13,442 nt of DNA from Phytoactinopolyspora endophytica (lineage in GTDB: Bacteria > Actinomycetota > Actinomycetes > Jiangellales > Jiangellaceae), in contig NZ_ML142880.1 in assembly GCF_004138495.1 (NCBI RefSeq), positions 10,826 through 24,267 of the forward strand. Direction: 5' to 3'. The position numbers were made by a program, and so were the translations under genes. Shown one piece after another: positions 245-10,753 of this stretch; position 1 is the first letter of the stretch; the number at the start of each line of letters is the position of its first letter. Below the pieces are notes generated by a model. It had not been told where the DNA came from. It saw only the letters and a program-made list of their open reading frames with translations, and ran no database searches.

Positions 245-1300
245 ATGGCAGTTGACCTGACCTCCTTCGCGAATGACGGGCGCTCGCTCGACACCATCGT
301 GCGTGAACAGGACGGCGTGGTCCGGCTCGAGGACATCGCGCATGTCATGACGCGGGCCATGGTCCGCCATGCGGTGAGGTCGGGTCGTTGGAGTTCGCCG
401 CATCGTGGTGTGTACGTCGCGCACAACGGCGAGCTGACCCGGAAACAAGAGCTGCTGGTGTGTCTGCGTGCAGCTCCTCCCGGCTCCGCGCTCGCTGGGT
501 TGACGGCGGCCGAGCTCGATGGTCTGCAGGGTTTCAAGGTCACCGAGGTGTACGTCGTGATCCCCACGAACGCGCGTCCGCCGGCACGCACCGGCCTGAT
601 AGTCAAGAAATCGCGGGTCTTGACCACGGACGACGTTCACCCGGTGCGCCAGCCTCGGAGGACCCGGTTGCCGCGCAGCCTGGTGGACAGCGCATCGTGG
701 ACTCCGCATGAAACTCGTGCCCGCGCGGTCATCCTCGCGGGCGTGCAGCAGAGGCTCACGCGGCCGGACGATCTTCGGGATGCCCTGAGCAGGCGAGCCA
801 ACTGCCGGCATCGGGTGTTGATCGCCGAGTCGATCGAGGATGCCGAAGGCGGTATTGCTTCCGTGCCCGAGCGTGAATTCGATCAGATCTGCCGCATGTT
901 CGACCTACCGGAACCAGAACGCCAAGCTGTCGTTCGGCGCTTGGACGGCCGGTACTACCTTGATGCCCATTGGCCGCGTTACGAGGTCGGAGCCGAGGTG
1001 CACGGCATCCAGCACATGGAGATCCTCAACTGGGACGCCGACCTGGACCGGCAAGCCGAGATCAGCGCGCGAGGCGATCGAGTCTTGCCGTTCACGTCCT
1101 TCTGGTGCGACACCACAAGACTCGCGTCGGGACGTTACTGGCTCAGGCCCTTCGAAACGGCGGCTGGTACGGCTGACGGCCTTGGCTCTGCGGTGTACGT
1201 GCGGCCACGGCTGGCGGCAAGAACATGCATTGCGGTTGTCATCACGACCGCAATGTCGTTCGGTGGGTGGGCGCCGTACATGGGGGCGCCTCCGGTGTGA
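245..1300 (+). CDS. AbiEi-like antitoxin-domain / DUF559 (PD-(D/E)XK-like) protein, C-terminus frameshifted
   Basis: The protein has an AbiEi-type winged-helix start (about residues 10-60, DGVVRLEDIAHV...VRHAVRSGRWSSPHRGVYVA) and a DUF559/Vsr-like nuclease-type domain near the end (PEREFD..., YYLDAHWP, GAEVHGIQHM, DRQAEISARGDRVLPF). This architecture is common in actinobacteria as 'type IV toxin-antitoxin AbiEi family antitoxin domain' proteins; most have no proven function. I start at ATG 245 because family members begin near MAVDLTSF; the open frame extends up to 47, but that stretch is unlike the family. No clear Shine-Dalgarno is visible. Family proteins end in ...VR...ALRNGGW; here that ending lies in the -1 frame (LLVRHHKTRVGTLLAQALRNGGWYG, stop at 1176), so a one-base loss near 1099 has probably replaced the true C-terminus with about 65 unrelated residues. 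It may be a pseudogene. Confidence 0.7.
   Translation: MAVDLTSFANDGRSLDTIVREQDGVVRLEDIAHVMTRAMVRHAVRSGRWSSPHRGVYVAHNGELTRKQELLVCLRAAPPGSALAGLTAAELDGLQGFKVTEVYVVIPTNARPPARTGLIVKKSRVLTTDDVHPVRQPRRTRLPRSLVDSASWTPHETRARAVILAGVQQRLTRPDDLRDALSRRANCRHRVLIAESIEDAEGGIASVPEREFDQICRMFDLPEPERQAVVRRLDGRYYLDAHWPRYEVGAEVHGIQHMEILNWDADLDRQAEISARGDRVLPFTSFWCDTTRLASGRYWLRPFETAAGTADGLGSAVYVRPRLAARTCIAVVITTAMSFGGWAPYMGAPPV
1201..1264 (+). repeat. 64-bp direct repeat with hairpin, copy 1
   Basis: This copy matches 1328-1391 at 59 of 64 positions. Its second half is a 12-bp stem (1228-1239 with 1244-1255, one G-T pair) closed by the tetraloop CATC. The copy starts 24 bases after the stop codon (1176) of the ancestral DUF559 frame. 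Confidence 0.85.
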
Positions 1301-1327
1301 ACGGTGCGCTGGTGTTGACGGGTTCAG

Positions 1328-1391
1328 GCGGCCACGGCTGGCGGCAAGAACATACATTGTGGTTGTCACCACGACCACAATGTCGTCCGGT
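1328..1391 (+). repeat. 64-bp direct repeat with hairpin, copy 2
   Basis: Second copy of the 1201-1264 repeat, offset by 127 bp. The stem is 1355-1366 with 1371-1382 and the loop is CACC. Of the five differences from copy 1, two fall at stem positions that pair with each other (C1233-G1250 becomes T1360-A1377), so pairing is kept. That suggests the fold, rather than the sequence alone, has been maintained. Confidence 0.85.
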
Positions 1392-1440
1392 ACAGGAGAT
1401 CGATAGGGCAACCGGTGCTCGTGGCGCGGGTGGCGCCTGG

Positions 1441-1613
1441 TGGTGGGCGCGCCGCTGCTTACCGGAGCCGTCCCTCCAGGCAAAGGACGCCTTCGGCGCC
1501 GCTTCGCGGCAGGCTTCGCCTGTCCTTGACCTGGAGACCTCTACGGCTCCGGTTCGGGCAGCGGTCGTCGGGCAGGCAGAGCCTGCCCGACGCTAGACGC
1601 GCCGCGCCCACCA
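1441..1613. repeat. nested multi-helix palindromic element with four-way junction
   Basis: Perfectly complementary arms are nested from outside in: 1441-1451 with 1603-1613 (11 bp), 1452-1458 with 1558-1564 (7 bp), 1461-1471 with 1543-1553 (11 bp), 1474-1480 with 1530-1536 (7 bp) and 1483-1487 with 1523-1527 (5 bp). The innermost stem encloses three hairpins that abut without an unpaired base: 1488-1498, 1499-1509 and 1510-1522, each with the triloop TTC flanked by C and G. A separate 11-bp hairpin (1567-1591) sits on the right side inside the outer stem. The terminal arm is TGGTGGGCGCG. It could be a MITE or REP-like mobile palindrome, or a structured RNA. No target-site duplication is obvious. 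Confidence 0.75.
1567..1591. terminator. perfect 11-bp hairpin, terminator-like
   Basis: GTCGGGCAGGC (1567-1577) and GCCTGCCCGAC (1581-1591) are exact reverse complements around the loop AGA. No T-run follows on either strand. It lies inside the outer arms of the nested palindrome and may be part of that element rather than an independent terminator. Confidence 0.45.
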
Positions 1614-1614
1614 A

Positions 1615-1831
1615 CGGCGAGACGTGGGGGAGCGACGCGGCAGTGTGCTGGATGGCGGGGCCGGATGGTGGTGGCGGCAAGGATGCCCAGCTTGCTGAAG
1701 GCGGTAGCGGCGAGACGTGGGGGAGTGACGTGGCAGTGTGCTGGATGGCGGGGCCGGATGGTGGGGAGCGGCGTGGCAGCGTGCTGGGCGGCAGGTGGTG
1801 GCGGCGAGGATGCCAGCGTGCTAAAGGCGGT
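1615..1831 (+). repeat. 93-bp tandem repeat, about 2.3 copies
   Basis: Unit 1 runs from 1615 to 1707 and unit 2 starts at 1708. Both begin CGGCGAGACGTGGGGGAG and contain GCAGTGTGCTGGATGGCGG. Unit 2 breaks off near 1765 and runs into a diverged third unit that ends GGTGGTGGCGGCGAGGATGCC...CTAAAGGCGGT. The 93-bp period is a multiple of three, which keeps frames open through it, but the translated repeat does not resemble a known protein. Confidence 0.75.
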
Positions 1832-1934
1832 GTCGAGGGAAGCGCAGGTAACCGCGGACGTACCGCCGCGCAACGGTTCACGGAGGAGCGTGTATTCGTG
1901 GCGGCGGTCCAACAGGGCCCTGGCTCGTACGGCG

Positions 1935-2336
1935 CTACGCGGAACGGGAGGCTGGGGTGGCGGCGAGGTCCTCAGCGTCTGATGTGTCGTCAGGTGTGTT
2001 CCTGATCGCTTCCAGGCGGGTCTTGTGCTCGCATCCCCACGCTCCCAGGGGACGCAGTGCGTCGTTGAGGGAAACGCCGAACTCGGTGAGCGAGTACTGG
2101 ACCTTCGGCGGGACCACGTGGTGAACCTCGCGGTGCACGACGCCGTCTCGTTCCAGCTCGCGCAGGTGCTGGATCAGCATCTTCTCGCTGACTCCGTCTA
2201 GACAGCGCTTGAGCTCACCGAACCGTTTCTCGCCCTCGCTGAGTGTCCAGAGGAGGAGCACCTTCCACTTACCGCCCACCACGTCGATGGCTGCGTCGAG
2301 TCCGCACACATACGACTGGCTGTTGCTCTTCGACAT
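1935..2336 (-). CDS. HxlR-family transcriptional regulator
   Basis: A 133-residue winged-helix regulator of the HxlR (MarR-like, DUF24) family, which usually acts as a dimer and often controls an adjacent transporter or detoxifying enzyme. The core is typical: C-GLDAAIDVVGGKWKVLLLWTL (residues 11-32), GEKRFGELKR, the recognition region VSEKMLIQHLRELERDGVV, and the wing PPKVQYSLTEFG. Cys11 sits where several HxlR proteins (YodB, HypR) carry a redox- or electrophile-sensing cysteine; Cys45 and Cys102 are also present, so thiol sensing is possible but not shown. I prefer ATG 2336, which has GGTGAG a few bases upstream; GTG 2348 in the same frame is the alternative. It is divergent from the MFS gene, and an HxlR-type operator lies 23 bases upstream of the start. 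Confidence 0.9.
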   Translation of the reverse strand: MSKSNSQSYVCGLDAAIDVVGGKWKVLLLWTLSEGEKRFGELKRCLDGVSEKMLIQHLRELERDGVVHREVHHVVPPKVQYSLTEFGVSLNDALRPLGAWGCEHKTRLEAIRNTPDDTSDAEDLAATPASRSA

Positions 2337-2745: not shown

Positions 2746-3906
2746 ATGCCAATTGCTGTTTTCTCACTCCTGCTGGTCGTCTTCAGCCTCACGACCGGTG
2801 AGTTCGTGATCGTCGGTATCCTGCCGGATGTCTCAGGTGACCTGTCGGTGTCGATCTCGGCCGCCGGCATGCTGGCCACCGCCTATGCACTGGGAATGAT
2901 CGTCGGGGGACCGACGGTCACCGTCATGACGGCGCGGATCGCTCGCAAACGGCTCATCATCGGCCTGGTCGCGGTGTCTGTGGCCGGGAACCTGGGGTCG
3001 GCGGTGGCGCCGAACTACGGCCTGCTCCTGGGTGCCCGGTTCGTCGCCGGTCTGGTGGTCGCCACGTTCTTCGCCGTCGCGATCACCACGGCAGTGTCGA
3101 TGGCTCCGGCAGGCAAGCAGGCCTCCACCGTGGCGAAGCTGACTCTGGGCATGAACCTCGGCATCATCCTCGGGACGCCGATGGGCACCTTCATCGGCCA
3201 GAACCTCGGCTGGCGGGCGACGTTCGTGGCCATCGCCGCAGTGAGCGTCACGGGTCTGCTCCTGGTACTGCGGTTCCTCCCGGCCCAGCCCGCGACCGCC
3301 ACCGGATCGGTCTTCGCGGAGCTGCGTGTGTTCGCAGACCGCGACGTCCGGCTCGCGATCACACTCACTGCCGCCGGCAACGTCGGGATCATGACCGTCT
3401 TCGTCTTCATTACGCCTCTGCTCACCGACATCAGCGGATTCTCTTCCGACGCGGTCCCGGTTCTGCTGCTCGTCTACGGCGCCGGCGCGGTGATCGGCAA
3501 CTTCCTCGGCGGATGGCTGGCGGACAGGTCGCTCATGCCGTCGCTGACCGGTCTGCTGAGTGTCTTGGCGGGGACCCTGGCTCTGTTCTGGCTGGTCAGC
3601 GGTGTCCAGGTGTTCGCAGCTGTGCTGACCTTCGTCATCGGGGTGCTGGCGTTCGCGATCATCCCAGGCATGCAGACGCGTGTCCTGGCCACCGCAACGG
3701 CTGCGCCCACCCTGGCCATCGCCGTCAACGCGTCCGGTTTCCAGGTCGCTGCCGCGTTCGCGGCGTGGCTTGGCGGGCGCGTCATTGACCACGACGCGCT
3801 CGGCCTGCGCTCGATCTACCTCGTCGGTGCCGGGCTCACGCTGGTGGGCTTGACCATCGCGGTCTACTCGATGCGCCGCGACCGAGTCCTGGTGTCGCAG
3901 CCCTGA
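2746..3906 (+). CDS. MFS transporter, DHA1-type drug efflux
   Basis: A 386-residue hydrophobic protein with about twelve membrane segments, the usual size for the DHA1 (AraJ/Cmx-like) branch of the major facilitator superfamily, which exports drugs or sugars by proton antiport. The start MPIAVFSLLLVVFSLTTGEFVIVGILPDV is characteristic. A degenerate motif A lies at GGPTVTVMTARIARKR (about residues 54-70), and the motif-C-like LGMNLGIILGTPMGTFIG followed by LGWRATF lies in the middle. ATG 2746 has AGGACGAG upstream at good spacing. The divergent HxlR regulator is the likely controller. The substrate cannot be told from sequence; export of a toxic or electrophilic compound would fit an HxlR partner. 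A hairpin follows the stop codon. Confidence 0.9.
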   Translation: MPIAVFSLLLVVFSLTTGEFVIVGILPDVSGDLSVSISAAGMLATAYALGMIVGGPTVTVMTARIARKRLIIGLVAVSVAGNLGSAVAPNYGLLLGARFVAGLVVATFFAVAITTAVSMAPAGKQASTVAKLTLGMNLGIILGTPMGTFIGQNLGWRATFVAIAAVSVTGLLLVLRFLPAQPATATGSVFAELRVFADRDVRLAITLTAAGNVGIMTVFVFITPLLTDISGFSSDAVPVLLLVYGAGAVIGNFLGGWLADRSLMPSLTGLLSVLAGTLALFWLVSGVQVFAAVLTFVIGVLAFAIIPGMQTRVLATATAAPTLAIAVNASGFQVAAAFAAWLGGRVIDHDALGLRSIYLVGAGLTLVGLTIAVYSMRRDRVLVSQP

Positions 3907-3922
3907 GTGGGATCTGCGGCCC

Positions 3923-3946
3923 CTGGTTCGAGTGGTATCGAGCCAG
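3923..3946 (+). terminator. hairpin after the MFS gene
   Basis: CTGGTTCGA and TCGAGCCAG form a 9-bp stem with one T-G pair and a 6-nt loop, beginning 17 bases after the MFS stop codon. Only G/C-rich sequence follows. Its position makes it a likely terminator. Confidence 0.5.
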
Positions 3947-3953
3947 ATGGGCG

Positions 3954-3989
3954 CATTCGTGACAAGTTCGGTCGTCATCGGGACGAATG
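3954..3989. repeat. inverted repeat CATTCGT/ACGAATG
   Basis: A perfect 7-bp inverted repeat (3954-3960, 3983-3989) with a 22-nt spacer directly after the terminator hairpin. It could be a spaced operator or a second stem; nothing decides between them. Confidence 0.3.
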
Positions 3990-4018
3990 TGCACTACGGT
4001 TTGTCTCGGTGTGTTTCT

Positions 4019-4046
4019 CAGGCGTGACGCGCCGTCACGTCGCCTG
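4019..4046. repeat. bulged hairpin CAGGCG-TGACG
   Basis: CAGGCG (4019-4024) pairs with CGCCTG (4041-4046) and TGACG with CGTCA inside it, leaving a CGC loop and a 3-nt bulge. This gives 11 bp of stem in the MFS-MocR gap. It is possibly part of termination for + strand transcripts. Confidence 0.4.
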
Positions 4047-4276
4047 CCGGGCACGACACGGTGAGCGGGAGAGAACGCACCGCTGCACGGCAAGCACGGG
4101 AGACGTACCGCTACGCGATGGGCGGGGAAACGTACCACCACGGTTGCCAGGGTTCGGGGTTGACGTCCGGGGGTCCTCGACGGTGTGCCTGATATCCGTG
4201 ACCATGGTGGGCGAGTGCGGGGTGCCTGTGGTGTCGGCCATGGGGAAGCTCGTGGGAGAGCAACGGAGGCAAGCTG

Positions 4277-4290
4277 CTGTACTAGTACAG
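4277..4290. promoter_or_regulatory. perfect 14-bp palindrome upstream of MocR gene
   Basis: CTGTACTAGTACAG is a perfect palindrome 69 bp before the MocR start. It contains TACTAG and TAGTAC, which could act as a -10 element, so a protein bound here would cover the promoter. Autoregulation by the MocR protein is the natural guess, since GntR/MocR regulators commonly bind near their own start. Confidence 0.55.
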
Positions 4291-4359
4291 TGAGTGTCGG
4301 GTTCGGGACGAGTGAAGCCGTCTTGTGGGGGACGGGGCGGCCGGGCGGAGGACGCAACG

Positions 4360-5937
4360 ATGGGTCGAGCCAGACGGATGAACGCCGACTTACCGATCAG
4401 CGGGCGGACATCTCGGGAAATTGCGGAGAGCATCGAGACCGGCGTCGAGACCGGGGATCTGCCTCCGCGTCAGGCGCTGCCGTCCGTGCGCGGCCTGGCG
4501 ACCCGCCTCGGGGTGAGCCCGACGACGGTCGCAACCGCCTACCGTGACCTGCGGATGCGTGGTGTGGTCACCAGCGAAGCAGGCCGGGTCACCCGCATCG
4601 GTACGCGTCCGCCGGTGTCGACCGCCGCCGCACAGGCCGCGCGGTCCGGGCCCTCTTGGTATGAAGGCCCGCGGCCGCCGGCAGGGTCAACGGCCTCACA
4701 GACCGACGAGGCGTCACCGAACAGCACGGCTCCGGCGCAGTACGACGGGTCGAGCGGGGCTCGGGGCGCCGACGGTCAGGGGCAGCTGAGTGGCCGTCGT
4801 GACCTCAGCGGCCTGCGTGATGTCAGCGACGGCAACCCCGACCCAGCGTTCCTGCCCGACGTCCAGGCCGTGCTGCGACGGCTCCGCGTCCCGCGCTACC
4901 TCTACGGCGAGCCGACGATCCTGCCGGAGCTCATGGAGATCATGCAGGCCGAGTTCGCCGACGTCTACGCACAAGCCGCCGGCCAGGGGTATGGAGGCAA
5001 TGGCGAGGCCGGACGAGGCGAGGGCTCTGCGAACGAGGCCGGCGCCGGTGAGACCGGTGATGTCTGCCTGGTCGGGAGCGCGCTGGACGGAGTGGAGCGA
5101 GTCCTCGCCGCCTGGACGAGGCTGGGGGACCGGGTGGTCATCGAGGACCCCGGGCACGCCGGGGTCCTCGACCTCGTGCACGCGATGGGTCTGGAGCCGA
5201 TCGGCGTCAGAGTCGACGACGCGGGTCCGCTCCCGGACGACCTCGACCGGGCCATGCAGCTGGGTCCGGCGGCCGTCGTCGTGACGCCGCGAGCGCAGAA
5301 TCCGACTGGGGCCGCGATCGACGACGAGCGGGCCGCCCGGCTCAGGACGGTGCTGGACGAGTATCCCGAGGTCGCAGTCGTGGAGGATGACCACGCGTGG
5401 CTGCTCGCCGGGGTGCAGTACGCCTCGCTGAGCGCGGGCCGCCGCACCTGGGCAGTGGTCCGCTCGGTCAGCAAGCATCTGGGGCCGGACATGCGGCTTG
5501 GCTTCCTGACGGGCGACCGTCGCACCGTCAGCCGGGTGGCCGGCCGGCAGATGCTCGGCGCCGGCTGGGTGAGCCACATCCTGCAGCATGCCGCCGTGGA
5601 GCTGTGGCGCGACGACGGAGTCAAGGCCGACGTACAGCGTGCCGCGTCGGCTTACCGGCTGCGGCGGGAGCAGTTCGTGGAGCGTCTCGCCGAGCGGGGC
5701 ATCCCGGCCCACGGCCGCTCCGGTTTCAACGTGCACATTCCGGTGCCCCAGGAGGCGCCGGTGATCCAGGAGATGCAGGCGCGTGGGTGGACGTTGCGGG
5801 CAGGGGAACTGCACCGGATCCGCAGCGAGAGCTTCGTCCGTGTCACGACGGCGACGCTCGAAACCGACGCGGGTCGCCAGCTGGCCGCGGACCTGGCGGC
5901 GGTCCTGGAACCGCAACGAATCAGCCACCTCGCCTGA
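4360..5937 (+). CDS. MocR-family regulator, PtsJ-like (wHTH plus PLP aminotransferase domain)
   Basis: A 525-residue protein with a GntR-type winged helix (about 14-82: GDLPPRQALPSVRGLATRLGVSP, TTVATAYRDLRMRGVV), a linker of about 80 residues rich in small and polar residues, and a fold-type I PLP aminotransferase domain. PLP-site residues are kept: Asn314 in TPRAQNPTG, Asp343-Asp344 in EDDHAW, and the Schiff-base lysine Lys372 in SVSKHLGPDMRLG. MocR proteins sense PLP or a PLP adduct and regulate genes of vitamin B6 or amino-acid metabolism. The domain resembles PtsJ (SDGNPDPAFLPD). I start at ATG 4360, which has GGAGG (4347-4351) at 8-base spacing; the frame runs 22 codons further upstream. 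A Gly/Glu-rich stretch at about 208-233 looks like an insertion. No B6 gene is adjacent, so the target is unknown. Confidence 0.88.
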   Translation: MGRARRMNADLPISGRTSREIAESIETGVETGDLPPRQALPSVRGLATRLGVSPTTVATAYRDLRMRGVVTSEAGRVTRIGTRPPVSTAAAQAARSGPSWYEGPRPPAGSTASQTDEASPNSTAPAQYDGSSGARGADGQGQLSGRRDLSGLRDVSDGNPDPAFLPDVQAVLRRLRVPRYLYGEPTILPELMEIMQAEFADVYAQAAGQGYGGNGEAGRGEGSANEAGAGETGDVCLVGSALDGVERVLAAWTRLGDRVVIEDPGHAGVLDLVHAMGLEPIGVRVDDAGPLPDDLDRAMQLGPAAVVVTPRAQNPTGAAIDDERAARLRTVLDEYPEVAVVEDDHAWLLAGVQYASLSAGRRTWAVVRSVSKHLGPDMRLGFLTGDRRTVSRVAGRQMLGAGWVSHILQHAAVELWRDDGVKADVQRAASAYRLRREQFVERLAERGIPAHGRSGFNVHIPVPQEAPVIQEMQARGWTLRAGELHRIRSESFVRVTTATLETDAGRQLAADLAAVLEPQRISHLA

Positions 5938-6120
5938 TGATGGTCCAACGGTTCGCCACATTTCGTCACGAATTTCGACTCATGGGCGCCCGGTATTAGC
6001 ACGTCAAACGGGGTCTTGTCCGGGTGCGTTCGCGTATGGGATGAAAGAGTGCGCTTTTGCGATTGCTTGTAGCGCCTCCCCGGTCCAGGATTAGTCGCTT
6101 AAGGGTGGAGCGAGTCATCA

Positions 6121-6142
6121 GGCTGGCCCGCGAGGGCCGGCC
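6121..6142. terminator. 9-bp hairpin with GNRA-type loop
   Basis: GGCTGGCCC and GGGCCGGCC form a 9-bp stem with one T-G pair around the loop GCGA, a stable GNRA tetraloop in RNA. It lies 184 bp after the MocR stop codon, so it may end that transcript or be part of a leader for the AraC genes. No T-tract follows. Confidence 0.4.
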
Positions 6143-6184
6143 GCTGAGGGGATGGGTGGTTGCGTGACCGATGAAGAGCCAAGA

Positions 6185-6227
6185 CGTCGTCACGACGACG
6201 AACAGGGGTATTAGGCGTACCAGTACG
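6185..6227. promoter_or_regulatory. two palindromes ahead of the AraC genes
   Basis: CGTCGTC-AC-GACGACG (6185-6200) and CGTAC-CA-GTACG (6216-6227) are perfect inverted repeats with 2-bp centres, 15 bp apart and about 180 bp before the first AraC gene. They have the size and symmetry of operators, but their protein is unknown. Confidence 0.35.
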
Positions 6228-6398
6228 TTATTGCAGGGCGGGGCTTACCGCATTCCGCTGAGTTCTCGCGGTTCAGCGTCCTGTCTCACGGCCACGGAAA
6301 CGGGCAATGTGCGCGATCTCGCAGTGGCCGATGTCGGCGTTGCGACGGTACAGCCGAGCCCAAACAAGGGGACATAACAGAAGAGAGGGTGAAGAACG

Positions 6399-6992
6399 TT
6401 GGCCAAGCAAGACGACCCGGCTGGGCCCGACGAACACGACGTGCCCGCCAGTGGGAACAGTGGGGGCGGTTCGGAGCACGAGGTGAACGAGTCACAGGAA
6501 GAGCCGGAGCCGCTGTCGGTGGCGCCGCGGTACTTGCACAAGGTGCTTGACCTGATCGAGGCACATCCCGAGTACGACCACACCACGGGCAGCATGGCCA
6601 TATACGCATCCATCAGTGAGCGGGCGCTGCAGTACCGCTTCAAGAGGCATCTGCAGACCACGCCCAAGACACATCTGCGGAATGTGCGCATGGAACGCGT
6701 GCGCACGGACCTGCTCGCGGCGTCGCCCGGGGACACGACCGCCGACAACATCGCGCATCGGTGGGGTTTCCGGCACTACGGGCACTTCACGGCGATGTAC
6801 ACGCAGCGGTTCAACGAGAAGCCGGCACAGGCGCTGTACCGGCCGCCCAGTACAGACGGGGCGAAGAAGATACCCGAACCACGGCAGGGCACGGCCGACG
6901 ATCAGCCGCCGGAAGCCGCCGCGGGCGGAGCGTCCGGGAAGCGTGCGAACACAAAGAAGGGTGGCGGCAAGCGGCGGCGAAAGGAGGAATGA
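6399..6992 (+). CDS. stand-alone AraC-type DNA-binding domain protein
   Basis: A 197-residue protein whose only folded part is an AraC/XylS double helix-turn-helix domain (about residues 44-148: SISERALQYRFKRHL...TPKTHLRNVRMERVRTDLLAASPGD...NIAHRWGFRHYGHFTAMYTQRFNEKPA). It has no ligand-binding or dimerisation domain. The first 40 residues are acidic and low-complexity, and the last 40 end in a basic tail, KRANTKKGGGKRRRKEE. The HTH region matches the next gene at 56 of 105 positions without gaps by my count, so the two are paralogues. TTG 6399 follows GAGAGGG at about 9 bases; GTG 6483, with GGAG upstream, is an in-frame alternative that would remove the acidic start. It could act as a competitor or co-regulator of the full-length paralogue. 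A T-tailed hairpin follows. Confidence 0.85.
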   Translation: MAKQDDPAGPDEHDVPASGNSGGGSEHEVNESQEEPEPLSVAPRYLHKVLDLIEAHPEYDHTTGSMAIYASISERALQYRFKRHLQTTPKTHLRNVRMERVRTDLLAASPGDTTADNIAHRWGFRHYGHFTAMYTQRFNEKPAQALYRPPSTDGAKKIPEPRQGTADDQPPEAAAGGASGKRANTKKGGGKRRRKEE

Positions 6993-7022
6993 CTCGTCTT
7001 TCCGGTGTCATACGATCACAAG

Positions 7023-7045
7023 AGCCTCGGAGAGGGGGCTATTTT
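7023..7045 (+). terminator. T-tailed hairpin between the two AraC genes
   Basis: AGCCTC (7023-7028) pairs with GGGGCT (7035-7040) with one T-G pair and the loop GGAGAG, followed by ATTTT. It is the only terminator in the window with a run of T. It lies 31 bp after the short AraC gene, so the second AraC gene probably has its own promoter; TTGACA at 7072-7077 is a perfect -35 hexamer but has no good -10 partner. Confidence 0.55.
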
Positions 7046-7262
7046 CGGCGGTAGACGCGTCACGGGCGGCATTGACAGCTGTGCGTGTCGTCGCAGTTGC
7101 CAGGTCACACGATCGATGCCGAAGATTTCTTCCGGATACCGCATGCTTGTCCTTTCGCGGACGGGATGAAACAATGCATCTCGTCGCTTGCGCCGGTCCT
7201 GTGAGTGGTCGAAGATGAGGGCGGACAGGCCGAAAGGATAGGCGTGGGAGGCGGCGTGACCT

Positions 7263-8303
7263 GTGGAATACGATGCATCTTTACCGCTTGGTCGTTATGA
7301 CGTCTTCCAAGGCGTCGGGCCGGACGGAATTGTTGAGACGCTCCACGATGTGCTGAGCTGGCATCTGCTGGAGTTGAAAGGCTTGGACCATGATGCGAGG
7401 CCGCGCGTTCATTGGCATCGTATCCGGGATGTACTGCTCAGCCACATCCAGTTGGGAAGTGCTGCGGAGATGATGGTCGACACGGACCAGCACGCGCTGA
7501 TCATCCAGACGCCCATGTCTGGACGCGTGCAGGTCCGTGTGGGCACACAGGACGTCGACCTGGAACCCGGGCTGGCCGTGATCACCTCCGACACGGATCG
7601 GCTGTCGATGCGCTGGAGCGCGGACTGCCGGATGTCCGTGGTCCGCATGGAGTTCGACGCCGTGAAGACGAGGTTGCTCGAACTGATCAGGGGACCGCTG
7701 CGCGAGCCGTTCCAGATCGAGACGGTCATGGACGTCGGCCAGGGTTATGGGCTGAGCTGGCGGCGATGGTGGTCGCTGCTGATCGAGGAGTTGGACCGTC
7801 CCGGCGCCTTGGTGGAACAACGGCGTGAGGCGGTGATATTCGAGAAGGCGCTGATGTCGTTGCTTTTGCGGGTGCAGCCGCACAATCACATGAGCTATCT
7901 GATACGGGACGATGATGCGGACACCGTTGACCAGAATGGAGTGCCGCTGGATGCCGTGCCGGATTACCCGCTGTATCTGCGTAAGGTGCTGCAGCTTATC
8001 GGGGATAATCCAGAGTGGGAGCATACGACGAGCAGCCTGGCGCAATTCGCTGCCATCAGCCCGCGGGCCCTGCAGGTCAGCTTCAAGCAACATGTCGGAA
8101 TGTCGCCTAAAACCTACCTCACCAACGTTAGACTTGACCGGGTATATGATGCCCTGCTCGCGGCGTCACGAGGGGAGGTGACAGTGGGACAGATAGCGCA
8201 AGGATACGGGTTTCATCATTACGGACGTTTCGTGATGCTATACCGGCAGAGATTCGGTGAGCGCCCGTATGACACACTGCTGCGTACTCCGCGCTCTGGG
8301 TAG
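7263..8303 (+). CDS. AraC-family regulator with N-terminal AraC_binding_2-type domain
   Basis: A 346-residue activator-type regulator. Residues 1 to about 200 form a beta-rich ligand/dimerisation domain of the AraC_binding_2 kind (HWHRIRDVLLSHIQLGSAAEMMVDT, SGRVQVRVGTQDVDLEPGLAVITSD), and residues 236-340 form the AraC/XylS DNA-binding domain (ISPRALQVSFKQHVGMSPKTYLTNVRLDRV, IAQGYGFHHYGRFVMLYRQRFGERP). The start is GTG 7263, with GGGAGG at 7246-7251, a slightly long 11-base gap. The HTH region is closely related to the upstream short protein. Its stop codon (8301-8303) is followed at once by the start of the recombinase-like gene, so the two are probably co-translated. The inducer is unknown. 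Confidence 0.92.
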   Translation: MEYDASLPLGRYDVFQGVGPDGIVETLHDVLSWHLLELKGLDHDARPRVHWHRIRDVLLSHIQLGSAAEMMVDTDQHALIIQTPMSGRVQVRVGTQDVDLEPGLAVITSDTDRLSMRWSADCRMSVVRMEFDAVKTRLLELIRGPLREPFQIETVMDVGQGYGLSWRRWWSLLIEELDRPGALVEQRREAVIFEKALMSLLLRVQPHNHMSYLIRDDDADTVDQNGVPLDAVPDYPLYLRKVLQLIGDNPEWEHTTSSLAQFAAISPRALQVSFKQHVGMSPKTYLTNVRLDRVYDALLAASRGEVTVGQIAQGYGFHHYGRFVMLYRQRFGERPYDTLLRTPRSG

Positions 8304-8306
8304 GTG

Positions 8307-9536
8307 ATGATGGGACGTCACAGGTACCGGTGCTCCAAGGGACACCCGGTAGACAAGCCTGGCCAGAAGTGCCTCGCTTGTCGGAAAGAGGAGATCGACG
8401 GGAAGAGTCAGCCCGGCAAATGCGCCAGATGCGGTATCGAGGTCGGCGAGGATGACCGCGGTCCGTGCGATCGATGCAGCCTCAAGGTACGGGTCAAAGA
8501 ACTCATAGCACCGGGCCCGCAGGAGGTTCCCCAGTCACTCAGAAGGTTCTACGACAGGGTGTGCTCGGCGCCCTGCCCACGCGCGGCGGAGCGCTGGCTC
8601 CGCGAGGGCACCGCGCCACGGATCCTGGCCGGCGTGGGCTCGGGCGATATCCCGATGACCCACGACGCCCTCGATGCGGAAGGGGACATCGAGGCGGCCG
8701 ACTACGTGCGTTACATGCTCGTCGCGGCCGGCATCCTCCAGAAGCGGGACGAGGGCCTCGAGCACGCGAAACGCTGGGCCCGAAGACTGCTCCTCACCGT
8801 CACAGGTGCCATGAACAGGCGGACCGTCACGGAGTTCTGGTCCTGCCACGTGGTGCCCAACATACGGTTCCTGAGCGAGACCGGCTCCGCGCGCCAGCTC
8901 GGCATCGTCAGGGCCAAGCGCAAGGTCAGGGGAGCGGTGGACTTCATGGTCTGGCTGGAGGCACGCGGCGTCGACCTGTATGACCTATGCCAGGCCGACG
9001 TGAACGAGTGGCTCAAGAGGGGTTCTCAGGCCAACGACGTCGCCAGCTTTCTGATGTGGGCGGGTACCCAGGGTTACTGCGTGCGGCTGCGAGTGCCCAC
9101 GGCCGAGGACTTGCTCGGCCTGGACTCCGAGGTCGACAAGTACTGGAGGCTCGTCGATCGTTTCCTGGACGACGAGGGTCTGGACGTGGCCGACCGGGTC
9201 GCGGGCGGGCTGGTGCTCATCTACGGCCGGCGTACCAATGAGATCTGCTCATTGACCAGTGATCACGTGACACTCGACGGGAAGGACGTCATCCTGCCCT
9301 TGGGCGGGCGAGACGTGCAGCTGCTCCCGGCGCTGTCCGCTCTGGTGATCAGGCTGATGCGCGGCGAGGGCGCGCATGGCGGCACGGTCACCCCGGATGA
9401 CCGGCGGACTCTGTTCGGCGGACCCTGGTACCGGGAGCACATCACCCCGTTCAGGCTCGCCGAGCGGCTCAGCACGCACGGGCTCGGCGAGGCGTCGGAT
9501 CTGATGACCCGCCGCAAGAAGCCCTTCAGCGCCTGA
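8307..9536 (+). CDS. zinc-ribbon, tyrosine-recombinase-like protein, probably C-terminally truncated
   Basis: A 409-residue protein. The N-terminus has two metal-binding clusters: Cys9-x3-His13...Cys22-x2-Cys25, then Cys39-x2-Cys42...Cys54-x2-Cys57. The rest resembles an actinobacterial 'site-specific integrase' family: a conserved helix region (SGDIPMTHDALD), a core-binding-like domain (about 175-240, RAKRKVRGAVDFMVWLEARG...CQADVNEWL) and a degenerate catalytic domain (VADRVAGGLVLIYGRRTNEICSLTSDHV, then PLGGRDVQLLP). Only the first arginine of the recombinase tetrad can be proposed (GRR). No HxxR or nucleophilic Tyr is visible. Relatives as I recall them continue after 'RLxxxGI' for about 45 residues and end in 'xWxxYA'; this protein stops at RLSTHGLGEASDLMTRRKKPFSA. 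Starts at GTG 8304, ATG 8307 or ATG 8310 are all possible, directly after the AraC stop. Confidence 0.7.
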   Translation: MMGRHRYRCSKGHPVDKPGQKCLACRKEEIDGKSQPGKCARCGIEVGEDDRGPCDRCSLKVRVKELIAPGPQEVPQSLRRFYDRVCSAPCPRAAERWLREGTAPRILAGVGSGDIPMTHDALDAEGDIEAADYVRYMLVAAGILQKRDEGLEHAKRWARRLLLTVTGAMNRRTVTEFWSCHVVPNIRFLSETGSARQLGIVRAKRKVRGAVDFMVWLEARGVDLYDLCQADVNEWLKRGSQANDVASFLMWAGTQGYCVRLRVPTAEDLLGLDSEVDKYWRLVDRFLDDEGLDVADRVAGGLVLIYGRRTNEICSLTSDHVTLDGKDVILPLGGRDVQLLPALSALVIRLMRGEGAHGGTVTPDDRRTLFGGPWYREHITPFRLAERLSTHGLGEASDLMTRRKKPFSA

Positions 9537-9585
9537 CACGAGTGACCGACACTCGGAAGGCTGGTACTGAGCGAGGACACGGCCC

Positions 9586-9629
9586 CGGTAGGTGATCGCT
9601 AAGTCACGCACCTTTGCGATCACCTACCG
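9586..9629. repeat. 14-bp perfect inverted repeat, 16-nt spacer (terminator or recombination site)
   Basis: CGGTAGGTGATCGC (9586-9599) and GCGATCACCTACCG (9616-9629) are exact reverse complements around TAAGTCACGCACCTTT. It lies 50 bp after the recombinase-like gene and between two convergent genes. A two-way terminator would fit the position. A recognition site for the recombinase-like family would fit the neighbour and the long exact arms; the 16-nt spacer is longer than a usual core site. Confidence 0.6.
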
Positions 9630-9669
9630 AGAGTCGTGCTTTGCGGGTCCGCCCACCCACGTCTGTCGT

Positions 9670-9749
9670 CCGGCCGTGGCCGGTGCGTTCATAGCCGGTG
9701 TGCCCGTATCGATCTGATCAGGCACGGAGCGCGGCCGGCTTGAGGCCGC
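9670..9749. repeat. two GC-rich hairpins between convergent genes
   Basis: CCGGCC-GT-GGCCGG (9670-9683) is a perfect palindrome around two bases. GCGGCC...GGCCGC (9731-9749) has a 7-nt loop and lies just past the end of the minus-strand oxidoreductase gene. The second is well placed to end that gene's transcript. Confidence 0.4.
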
Positions 9750-9763
9750 TCATCTCCGATTTC

Positions 9764-10753
9764 TCAGATGTCGTCGATGTCCACCGCGCCGCCTTCGTGG
9801 GCTGAGCGGAGGATGGCGTCGTGAACGCGCATGGTCTGGTAAGCGCAGTCGATCGTGGCGGTCGCGGGCTGGCGGTCCTCGCGTACGGCGGCGACGAACT
9901 CGGTGAGCTCTCCCAGGTAGCCGATGTCTTTCAAGCTGTCTTGGAGGCTGAGTGGGCGATCGCAGACTTCGACGACTTCGCCACTGTGATACCTCATCAT
10001 CCGGCCCGAGGTGTCGGTCTTGATGTAGTGCCCATGGTCCCCGGTTACGTGGAGCTCTTCGGTGAACTGGTCGACACGGTTGACCGTCATGGTGAGTGTG
10101 CCGATGCTGCCGTTGGCGAACGTCAGCGTGGCCACGTAGGAGTGTCCGTCGTGTTCCTTGGCGAAGACCTGCGTGACATCGCCGAACATGTAACGCGCGA
10201 GGTCGATCACGTGAATGCCGGACTCGAGGACGAACGAGTTGCCCCAGCCATGGGGCCGTTGGCCCATCGACCAGTTGATCGACAGCATGCTGGGCGCGCC
10301 GAACTCAGTTGACGCGATCGCGGTGCGCATCTTCTGATACACCGGCGAGAAGCGCTTCATGAAACCCGTCATGCAGGTCTGTCCAGAACGGCTGCTGGAC
10401 TCCCACATGGCTGCGGCGTCGGTGGCGGACGGGCCCGGTGGGGCCTCGGTCCAGACCGGATAGCCGGCTTCCATGGCGTCGATGGCCAGAGCAGGTTGTG
10501 TCGCGTGCCCGGTACATATCACGACCGCGTCGAATTCCACTTCGATCGCCTTGAGCATCTTCTTGTAATCGGTGTAGACCTCTTCTCCGGCAAATGCTCG
10601 AGCTTTGCCCCGGGCGCGTGAGTCATCGAGATCGCAGACCGCGGCGAGGTCCACGGGCAGGAACGAAAGGCACGGATAAATTCGTTCGGAAGCATGTTCC
10701 CCGGCACCGATGACAGCGAGCCGTACGCGTTGATCAATGCCCGAGGCCGTCAT
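9764..10753 (-). CDS. Gfo/Idh/MocA-family oxidoreductase with altered EKP motif
   Basis: A 329-residue protein with an N-terminal Rossmann domain (LAVIGAGEHASERIYP, residues 12-27, with acidic Asp41-Asp43 at the second strand end suggesting NAD preference) and the family's C-terminal alpha/beta domain. Members oxidise or reduce sugars, inositols and related polyols with NAD(P). Family signs include GFMKRFSPVY (130-139) and ESGIHVIDLARYMFGD (177-192), with His181 and Asp184 in the expected active-site positions. The usual EKP catalytic motif reads TEAPPG here: Glu103-Ala104-Pro105, so the lysine is missing. ATG 10753 has AGAGGA at good spacing; ATG 10768, in frame, has none. It lies downstream of the IclR gene on the same strand, but 473 bp away, so it probably has its own promoter. 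Confidence 0.9.
   Translation of the reverse strand: MTASGIDQRVRLAVIGAGEHASERIYPCLSFLPVDLAAVCDLDDSRARGKARAFAGEEVYTDYKKMLKAIEVEFDAVVICTGHATQPALAIDAMEAGYPVWTEAPPGPSATDAAAMWESSSRSGQTCMTGFMKRFSPVYQKMRTAIASTEFGAPSMLSINWSMGQRPHGWGNSFVLESGIHVIDLARYMFGDVTQVFAKEHDGHSYVATLTFANGSIGTLTMTVNRVDQFTEELHVTGDHGHYIKTDTSGRMMRYHSGEVVEVCDRPLSLQDSLKDIGYLGELTEFVAAVREDRQPATATIDCAYQTMRVHDAILRSAHEGGAVDIDDI

Follow-up and report, generated by a model that had tools for sequence, protein, structure and literature searches.

Conserved boxes are carried by the ssoA-type origins, and the complementary-strand origin of G4 presents three hairpins on single-stranded DNA. On pIJ101, the minus origin is the sti locus. The fold-back palindromes of Streptomyces telomeres bear GNA-type loops on a folded single strand, and the REP13E12/DUF222 repeats of mycobacteria hold a DUF222 gene as a repeated, mobile-looking unit. 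Two reports on Frpo describe a folded single strand in which boxes that RNA polymerase can use, a -35 and a -10, are rebuilt (PMC9849209, PMC11541004). Single-strand origins of the RNA-polymerase type, such as ICEBs1 sso1 and the pBAA1 sso, are described in passages of a further report as a folded displaced strand that is recognised as a promoter and is active in one orientation (PMC4595007). The double-strand origin is treated in a survey of AICEs whose main text does not contain the term sso (PMC3218068).

The window analysed here is the whole of a 13,442-nt stretch of Phytoactinopolyspora endophytica DNA (GCF_004138495.1, NZ_ML142880.1, positions 10,826-24,267, forward strand). A 173-base nested palindrome lies in an intergenic gap at window positions 1441-1613. 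The whole analysis was computational, and the fold, covariation, loops, boxes, bubble, Rep orientation and DUF222 pairing reported below were all computed. With a probability of roughly 0.6, we read the family to which this palindrome belongs as single-stranded-DNA promoters acting as single-strand origins, and the window copy as an orphan of one branch of it, type A. Most members look like switches, at which reading and copying begin on DNA that is still single-stranded. By its geometry the family can be likened to Frpo/ssi of F-like plasmids, with boxes at the stem on a folded single strand, and some copies likewise lie near ArdC, relaxase and coupling-protein genes. Unlike Frpo/ssi, the cloverleaf family has a tip of GNA mini-hairpins and a -10 box in a bubble, mostly without its first T; its hosts are Actinobacteria and Alphaproteobacteria, and it also occurs on integrated and rolling-circle elements. 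The box geometry on a folded displaced strand is also that of ICEBs1 sso1 and the pBAA1 sso, from which the family differs by its four-way junction core and by its presence on pSAM2-type actinomycete elements.

An initial annotation of the palindrome had been made from the sequence alone. All of the stems, loops and coordinates that it gave are present in the sequence, and its statement that the complementarity exceeds chance holds, as no dinucleotide shuffle folds as well on either strand (n=200). Against these 200 shuffles the fold z-scores were -7.26 (plus strand) and -8.83 (minus strand) with RNA parameters, and -8.55 (plus) and -9.16 (minus) with DNA parameters. The three hairpins at 1488-1522 abut without any free base, and each has a TTC loop. 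The junction is able to branch-migrate: the hairpins measure 3, 5 and 4 bp in the plus-strand RNA fold and 4, 4 and 5 bp in the DNA fold. The side hairpin, described initially as 11 bp long, is indeed present at 1566-1592, and its size is 11-12 bp here. The parts of the element are listed below in window coordinates, with a strand named where one is assigned.

1441..1451: 5' half of the outer arm (TGGTGGGCGCG), paired with 1603..1613 over 11 bp; compensatory changes in type A relatives.
1603..1613: 3' half of the outer arm, from sequence and fold; compensatory changes in type A relatives.
1452..1458: 5' half of the second stem, paired with 1558..1564 over 7 bp; from sequence and fold.
1558..1564: 3' half of the second stem, from sequence and fold.
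1461..1471: 5' half of the third stem, paired with 1543..1553 over 11 bp; from the fold and the type A alignment.
1543..1553: 3' half of the third stem, from the fold and the type A alignment.
1474..1480: 5' half of the fourth stem, paired with 1530..1536 over 7 bp; from the fold and the type A alignment.
1530..1536: 3' half of the fourth stem, from the fold and the type A alignment.
1483-1487/1523-1527: innermost (fifth) stem, 5 bp, read from the sequence.
1480..1531, plus strand: cloverleaf core (four-way junction), 71.7 bits with model R1, the window being among the 14 training sequences.
1488..1498: hairpin 1, 4 bp, TTC loop (GAA on the minus strand), from the sequence.
1499..1509: hairpin 2, 4 bp, TTC loop, from the sequence.
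1510..1522: hairpin 3, 5 bp, TTC loop, from the sequence.
1537..1546, plus strand: ACCTCTACGG, bulge and stem; all 9 of the type A copies aligned have an identical CCTCTRCGGC.
1566..1592: side hairpin, common to type A relatives.
1479..1484, minus strand: site matching the -35 box of relatives, here TTTGCC, degraded.
1456..1461, minus strand: site matching the -10 box of relatives after a spacer of 17, here TAAGCA, without the final T.

By DNA similarity, the window element is a single copy in its own genome. Covariance model R1, which was trained on 14 copies including the window and is the basis of all later model searches, finds three cores there; the locus is therefore not the lone copy without homologues or covariation whose possibility the initial annotation had raised. 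Its alternative of a REP-like element is not supported, with one DNA-similar copy (three cores by model) in the genome. A sensitive search of plasmids from the window matched a copy on a Streptosporangium plasmid (75.6% over 115 query positions, E 6e-7), together with short matches to the three-hairpin core on Streptomyces and Sphingobium plasmids. Further searches from these first relatives matched Prauserella, Pseudonocardia, Arthrobacter, Kocuria, Rhodococcus, Nocardia, Curtobacterium and others, and the copies that were folded have a common stem type, (GTC)AAGGG/CCCTT(GAC), which encloses three hairpins. Model copies were present in 19 of the 22 genomes of the window's family (E up to 1e-3), and the order-level search took in the identical 22 genomes. 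In a sample of the class, searched with stricter filters (E up to 1e-8), 28 of 148 genomes had model copies, and 10 of these 28 belong to the window's own family. The strict pattern occurs in at least 119 stretches of GTDB genomes, holding at least 134 cores. Plasmids of Skermanella and Microvirga scored 60.5 and 58.2 bits with the model, and these scores extend the family into the Alphaproteobacteria, where the sphingomonad form is more distant (32.4 bits). A similarity match, L034 (NZ_CP109481), gave no match to the covariance model, and pIJ101 was marginal (12.9 bits, E 0.051). IMG/VR viral contigs held 0 matches to the strict pattern, searched as the exact pattern only, and the Kocuria core had no match among phage records. 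Phage matches to the window (best 20 of 24 records; E 0.6, 82-84% over ~40 bases) were judged to be chance. A description of the family was not found in the literature, as searched in open-licence papers. One contig (L259, positions 2810-9815, genome G037) carries three direct copies with 3-4 kb between them.

The fold is supported by covariation. Among the 14 training copies, 7 pairs were altered on both sides. The test alignment comprised 50 model matches (48 distinct), included no training sequence and was fitted to the model structure. Double-sided changes were observed in 15 of its 21 pairs (109 such cells), and its covariation score was reached by 0 of 500 shuffles. The proportion of paired cells was 95.9%, against 84.7% in shuffles and at most 50.1% in slid registers. 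Further pair types were weakly above shuffles, since 61 of 500 shuffles were as high for the training set and 43 of 500 for the 50 matches. When 45 model matches were parsed independently of the model, 21 had a perfect junction without any free base, and the strict parser found mismatches, longer loops or extra bases in the remaining 24.

The loops of these junctions follow one type. TNC occupies 52 of the 58 triloops in the 21 perfect junctions. Within the 50-match set, hairpin 2 has TNC in 49 of 50 copies, all four bases occurring at N, and is closed by C-G in all 50; every one of the 37 triloops of hairpin 3 is TNC; hairpin 1 varies most, with TNC in 15 of 19 triloops. Copies found by the strict pattern were left out of these counts because the pattern preselects TNC loops. 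A TNC loop closed by C-G reads C-GNA-G on the opposite strand. GNA loops on G-C stems form DNA mini-hairpins that are reported, in part of one paper, to be extraordinarily stable (PMC4686876). Because C-GNA-G loops belong to this extra-stable DNA class, the loops indicate that the molecule which folds is the minus strand, as DNA. The initial suggestion that the fold could form in extruded DNA is supported, the fold being relevant as single-stranded or extruded DNA. In two genomes of the family a far longer hairpin stands in place of hairpin 1 (L066, 1501-1595; L063, 1501-1609), and the sphingomonad copy L033 shows a similar change of hairpin 1.

The most informative feature of the relatives, which the initial annotation could not have drawn from one sequence, is a set of promoter-like boxes on the 3' arm of the minus strand. 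Arms were taken from 196 copies, 176 of which had full flanks, and 63 were left once similar upstream arms had been removed. These 63 copies are not phylogenetically independent, and 25 of the arms came from the strict pattern, which includes the -35 and excludes the -10. The first box is TTGAC in 37 of the 63, TTGAT or TTGAG in 22 and another sequence in 4. A NANNNT hexamer follows the TTGA-type box by 16-18 nt in 45 of the 63 non-redundant copies, as against 2 of 63 on the plus arm and a mean of 4.0 in shuffled arms (maximum 11 in 500). The spacer peaks at 16 (19 copies) and 17 (21 copies), and the hexamer was present in 25 of 38 copies found by model or similarity and in 20 of 25 found by pattern. 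With a spacer of 15 admitted, the count rose to 50 of 63 (plus arm 7; shuffles mean 5.2, maximum 13). The first T of the canonical -10 is kept in only 5 of these 50, as might be expected of a box that needs no melting. Under DNA parameters the mean unpaired probability was 0.08 for the -35, 0.20 for the spacer and 0.53 for the -10, and the -10 was more open than the spacer in 44 of the 50 copies with the box.

The box at a spacer of 16-18 is absent from 18 of the 63 copies, including the window copy, L044 and L039, the last of which has TATGCT at a spacer of 15. Actinomadura copies keep TTGAC and have TACGCC or TACGCA at the -10 site, and one copy from genome G155 is without a fitting hexamer; the promoter reading therefore does not hold for the window's nearest relatives. 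Fitting hexamers are present in the type A relatives L029 (GACACT) and L228 (CAGGAT). An ordinary double-stranded promoter reading leftward was considered and rejected: in 11 of 17 plasmid loci the gene annotated to the left is directed towards the element, and such a promoter leaves the covariation unexplained.

Out of 62 listed family places, 20 contexts were fetched, 17 of 18 kb and three shorter. A gene for RepSA (PF20199), the rolling-circle initiator of pSAM2, is found in 12 of the 20, and in 12 of these 12 it lies on the opposite strand, on the 5' side (upstream) of the element; the RepSA HMM was built from nine of the 12. Rep orientation in L153 and L210 agrees with these contexts, as it does on the 8-kb plasmid pPA43082 (L035), whose Rep_1 gene is on the minus strand. 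The exception is L175, with a Rep fragment on the same strand as both copies there. The 1.6-kb Curtobacterium plasmid D03b (L036) has an unannotated minus-strand ORF at 841-1578 with a Rep_trans match below cut-off, and the strand relation of this weak match to the element agrees with the RepSA contexts. If the displaced strand has the sense of rep, it would be the GNA strand.

Conjugation genes adjoin two of the plasmid copies, one before a TrwC relaxase gene (L044) and one between a coupling-protein gene and ArdC (L039). Among the 17 plasmid loci (L029-L033, L035-L044, L218, L219), the first gene on the 3' side reads rightward, the expected direction of the RNA, in 8, which gives no support to the idea that the element generally drives expression of the gene next to it. 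On a Skermanella plasmid (L218, 5004-6163) a core copy lies ~80 bp from an IS110 transposase gene, and a Streptomyces match falls under an IS110 gene; the palindrome may be an IS110 target.

The closest relatives of the window copy form the type A branch. The window copy is 76% identical over 179 positions, its full length, to a copy from Actinomadura chibensis and 70% identical over 182 positions to a Streptosporangium copy. Nine type A copies have in common CCTCTRCGGC, the side hairpin and a compensating outer arm; double changes occur in 18 of their 62 pairs, with an RNAalifold covariation term of only -0.12. Copies were assigned to type A by GGGGCCGCC within 60 nt upstream, a rule that yielded 79 copies in the fetched GTDB stretches, Actinomadura in the records checked. 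A DUF222 gene lies 3' of the type A copy in 35 of 35 cases with 2.5 kb available there (tblastn above 50% identity), 5' of it in 0 of 54, and near type B copies in 0 of 37. DUF222 (PF02720) is the sole Pfam match of the adjoining protein, whose C-terminus looks HNH-like by eye. The window's own genome has 10 DUF222 matches, 9 of them over the cut-off.

Pairs of type A copies within one stretch are inverted (+,-) in 13 of 13 cases and stand 1.9-2.8 kb apart; one of two type B pairs is (+,-) and the other direct. Genome G155 holds 26 copies, and all 11 pairs examined there are inverted, with varied cargo between the two copies. These 11 pairs gave no consistent target-site duplication, and the outer flanks of some are long inverted repeats; reading the cargo ORFs by eye revealed no transposase common to the units. 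The pairs at L244-L253 and L255 enclose ~1-3.7 kb of cargo that is GntR-like, NUDIX-like and acetyltransferase-like by eye. The mobile palindrome proposed initially is thus recognisable in a recurrent, mobile-looking family, whose close Actinomadura relatives are inverted pairs bounding a gene. Like Streptomyces telomeres, the (+,-) pairs have a GNA cloverleaf at each 3' end; unlike them, the cloverleaf is internal rather than terminal, and association with a terminal protein is limited to one neighbour (L030). The DUF222 gene in a repeated unit recalls the mycobacterial REP13E12 repeats, from which the Actinomadura units differ in being bounded by ~175 bp cloverleaf inverted repeats.

The window copy itself is solo, not paired, and sits in a ~0.76 kb gap between convergent genes, one for a plus-strand protein with a weak AbiEi_4 match below cut-off and one for a minus-strand HxlR regulator. 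Its boxes, TTTGCC-17-TAAGCA, do not make up a -35/-10 pair at promoter spacing. The other two copies in the genome have TTGAC with CAGAAT or AAGAAT at a spacer of 16, and one of them lies inside a RepSA/FtsK element (L094). A scan of window 1100-2000 for the sigma70 consensus found no promoter-like site, which is consistent with the degradation of this copy's boxes. A congener (G002) keeps both neighbour genes, with 76% and 81% DNA identity; between them are ~4 kb of other sequence and genes, with no model match above 14.4 bits. Because the congener has the neighbours without the element, cis-regulation of these genes was rejected and we place the element outside their regulation. The likeliest reading of the window element is an orphan mobile copy from the type A branch. 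Since its cloverleaf is intact but its boxes are degraded, we regard it as a mobile remnant that lacks an active promoter.

Other repeats surround the palindrome. Window 1201-1264 and 1328-1391 are two copies (92%) of a hairpin-bearing repeat, and window 1177-1440 used as a query gave 13 matches in its own genome, including itself; this is a REP-like repeat distinct from the palindrome. Imperfect GC-rich repeats of ~57 nt lie directly downstream (1615-1807). Elsewhere in the window, the ORF at 8304-9536 has no Pfam match; by eye it resembles a tyrosine recombinase that is truncated and has a zinc-finger-like stretch at its N-terminus.

We propose that the family serves rolling-circle and conjugative elements as a complementary-strand origin. 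Once single, the strand that is displaced or transferred, which is the minus strand in element orientation, would fold into a long stem with a cloverleaf crown of three GNA mini-hairpins. Pairing in the stem, below the tip, would make the TTGA-type -35 box double-stranded, and a preformed bubble 16-18 nt further along the 3' arm would contain the -10 box. Host RNA polymerase would bind this folded strand, with RNA made on the 5' arm; synthesis of the complementary strand would be primed by this RNA, from which genes could also be expressed. In Actinomadura the type A branch would have become the inverted terminal unit of DUF222 elements, with the window copy as an orphan. Polymerase binding, priming and mobility, like the inactivity of the window copy, are what we infer. 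An extension of this proposal, which we regard as speculative and rather improbable, is that the cloverleaf promoter/origin of actinobacterial and alphaproteobacterial mobile DNA is also the terminal unit of transposable elements of a new type. Such elements would be inverted pairs in which each strand has the GNA fold at its 3' end, would carry DUF222 or varied cargo and would move via their folded single-stranded ends, and the window copy would be an orphan end.

To one rival account we give slightly less than even odds. It takes the window copy to be simply a terminal repeat or a palindrome of MITE-like kind, which a DUF222 protein or another enzyme moves in trans, and a single-strand promoter is irrelevant to this copy. 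It overlaps with the single-strand-origin reading for the window copy and differs from it for the family. The uniform (+,-) arrangement of type A pairs (13 of 13), the DUF222 gene 3' in 35 of 35, the 11 inverted G155 pairs around varied cargo, the 10 DUF222 matches in the window's own genome (9 over cut-off) and the congener locus without the element all speak for it. It is weakened by the lack of a consistent target-site duplication at the 11 G155 pairs and by the lack of a transposase common to the units, as read by eye; moreover, the window copy is solo and an empty allele of the same species is not known.

The remaining alternatives concern what the fold does. Recruitment of a primase or primosome to single-stranded DNA, as at a G4- or PAS-like ssi, with no part for RNA polymerase and with the TTGA and NANNNT boxes incidental, seems unlikely to us: three hairpins on single-stranded DNA do resemble the G4 origin, and the window and Actinomadura copies retain the cloverleaf without good boxes, but the spacer peak at 16-17 on one arm only among 63 copies, together with the -10 bubble, is what RNA polymerase needs. 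We think a structured non-coding RNA, also raised by the initial annotation, very improbable. The covariation fits RNA as well as DNA, and the RNA fold z-scores (-7.26, -8.83) are in its favour; against it, a transcript from the conserved boxes would start downstream of the cloverleaf, the minus-strand loops are GNA, a DNA-stable class according to part of PMC4686876, and the Rfam scan of the window gave only two miRNA families, both far below the gathering cut-off. DNA is favoured by the type of loop and the position of the promoter, with no relevant Rfam match. A scan of 11 plasmid loci with Rfam found group II intron parts in L029 and nothing else, and a tRNA/tmRNA scan found none. Least probable of all, in our view, is a double-stranded-DNA cruciform acting as a Holliday-junction mimic on which a resolvase or recombinase would work, or else a terminator that serves the convergent genes in both directions. 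Junctions without an unpaired base in 21 of 45 model matches would suit the cruciform, and the position of the window copy between convergent genes the terminator, but the congener has the flanking genes without the element, and strand-specific loops and boxes are unnecessary for either.

If the single-strand-origin reading is true, the cloverleaf is likely a missing part of actinomycete integrative/conjugative elements and plasmids, namely that for priming and first expression of the displaced or entering single strand. Single-stranded-DNA promoters would then reach well beyond F-like plasmids, and the cloverleaf would be a ready marker of plasmid-derived DNA. There would also be a type of mobile element bounded by folded DNA around proteins with DUF222, a domain of unknown function.
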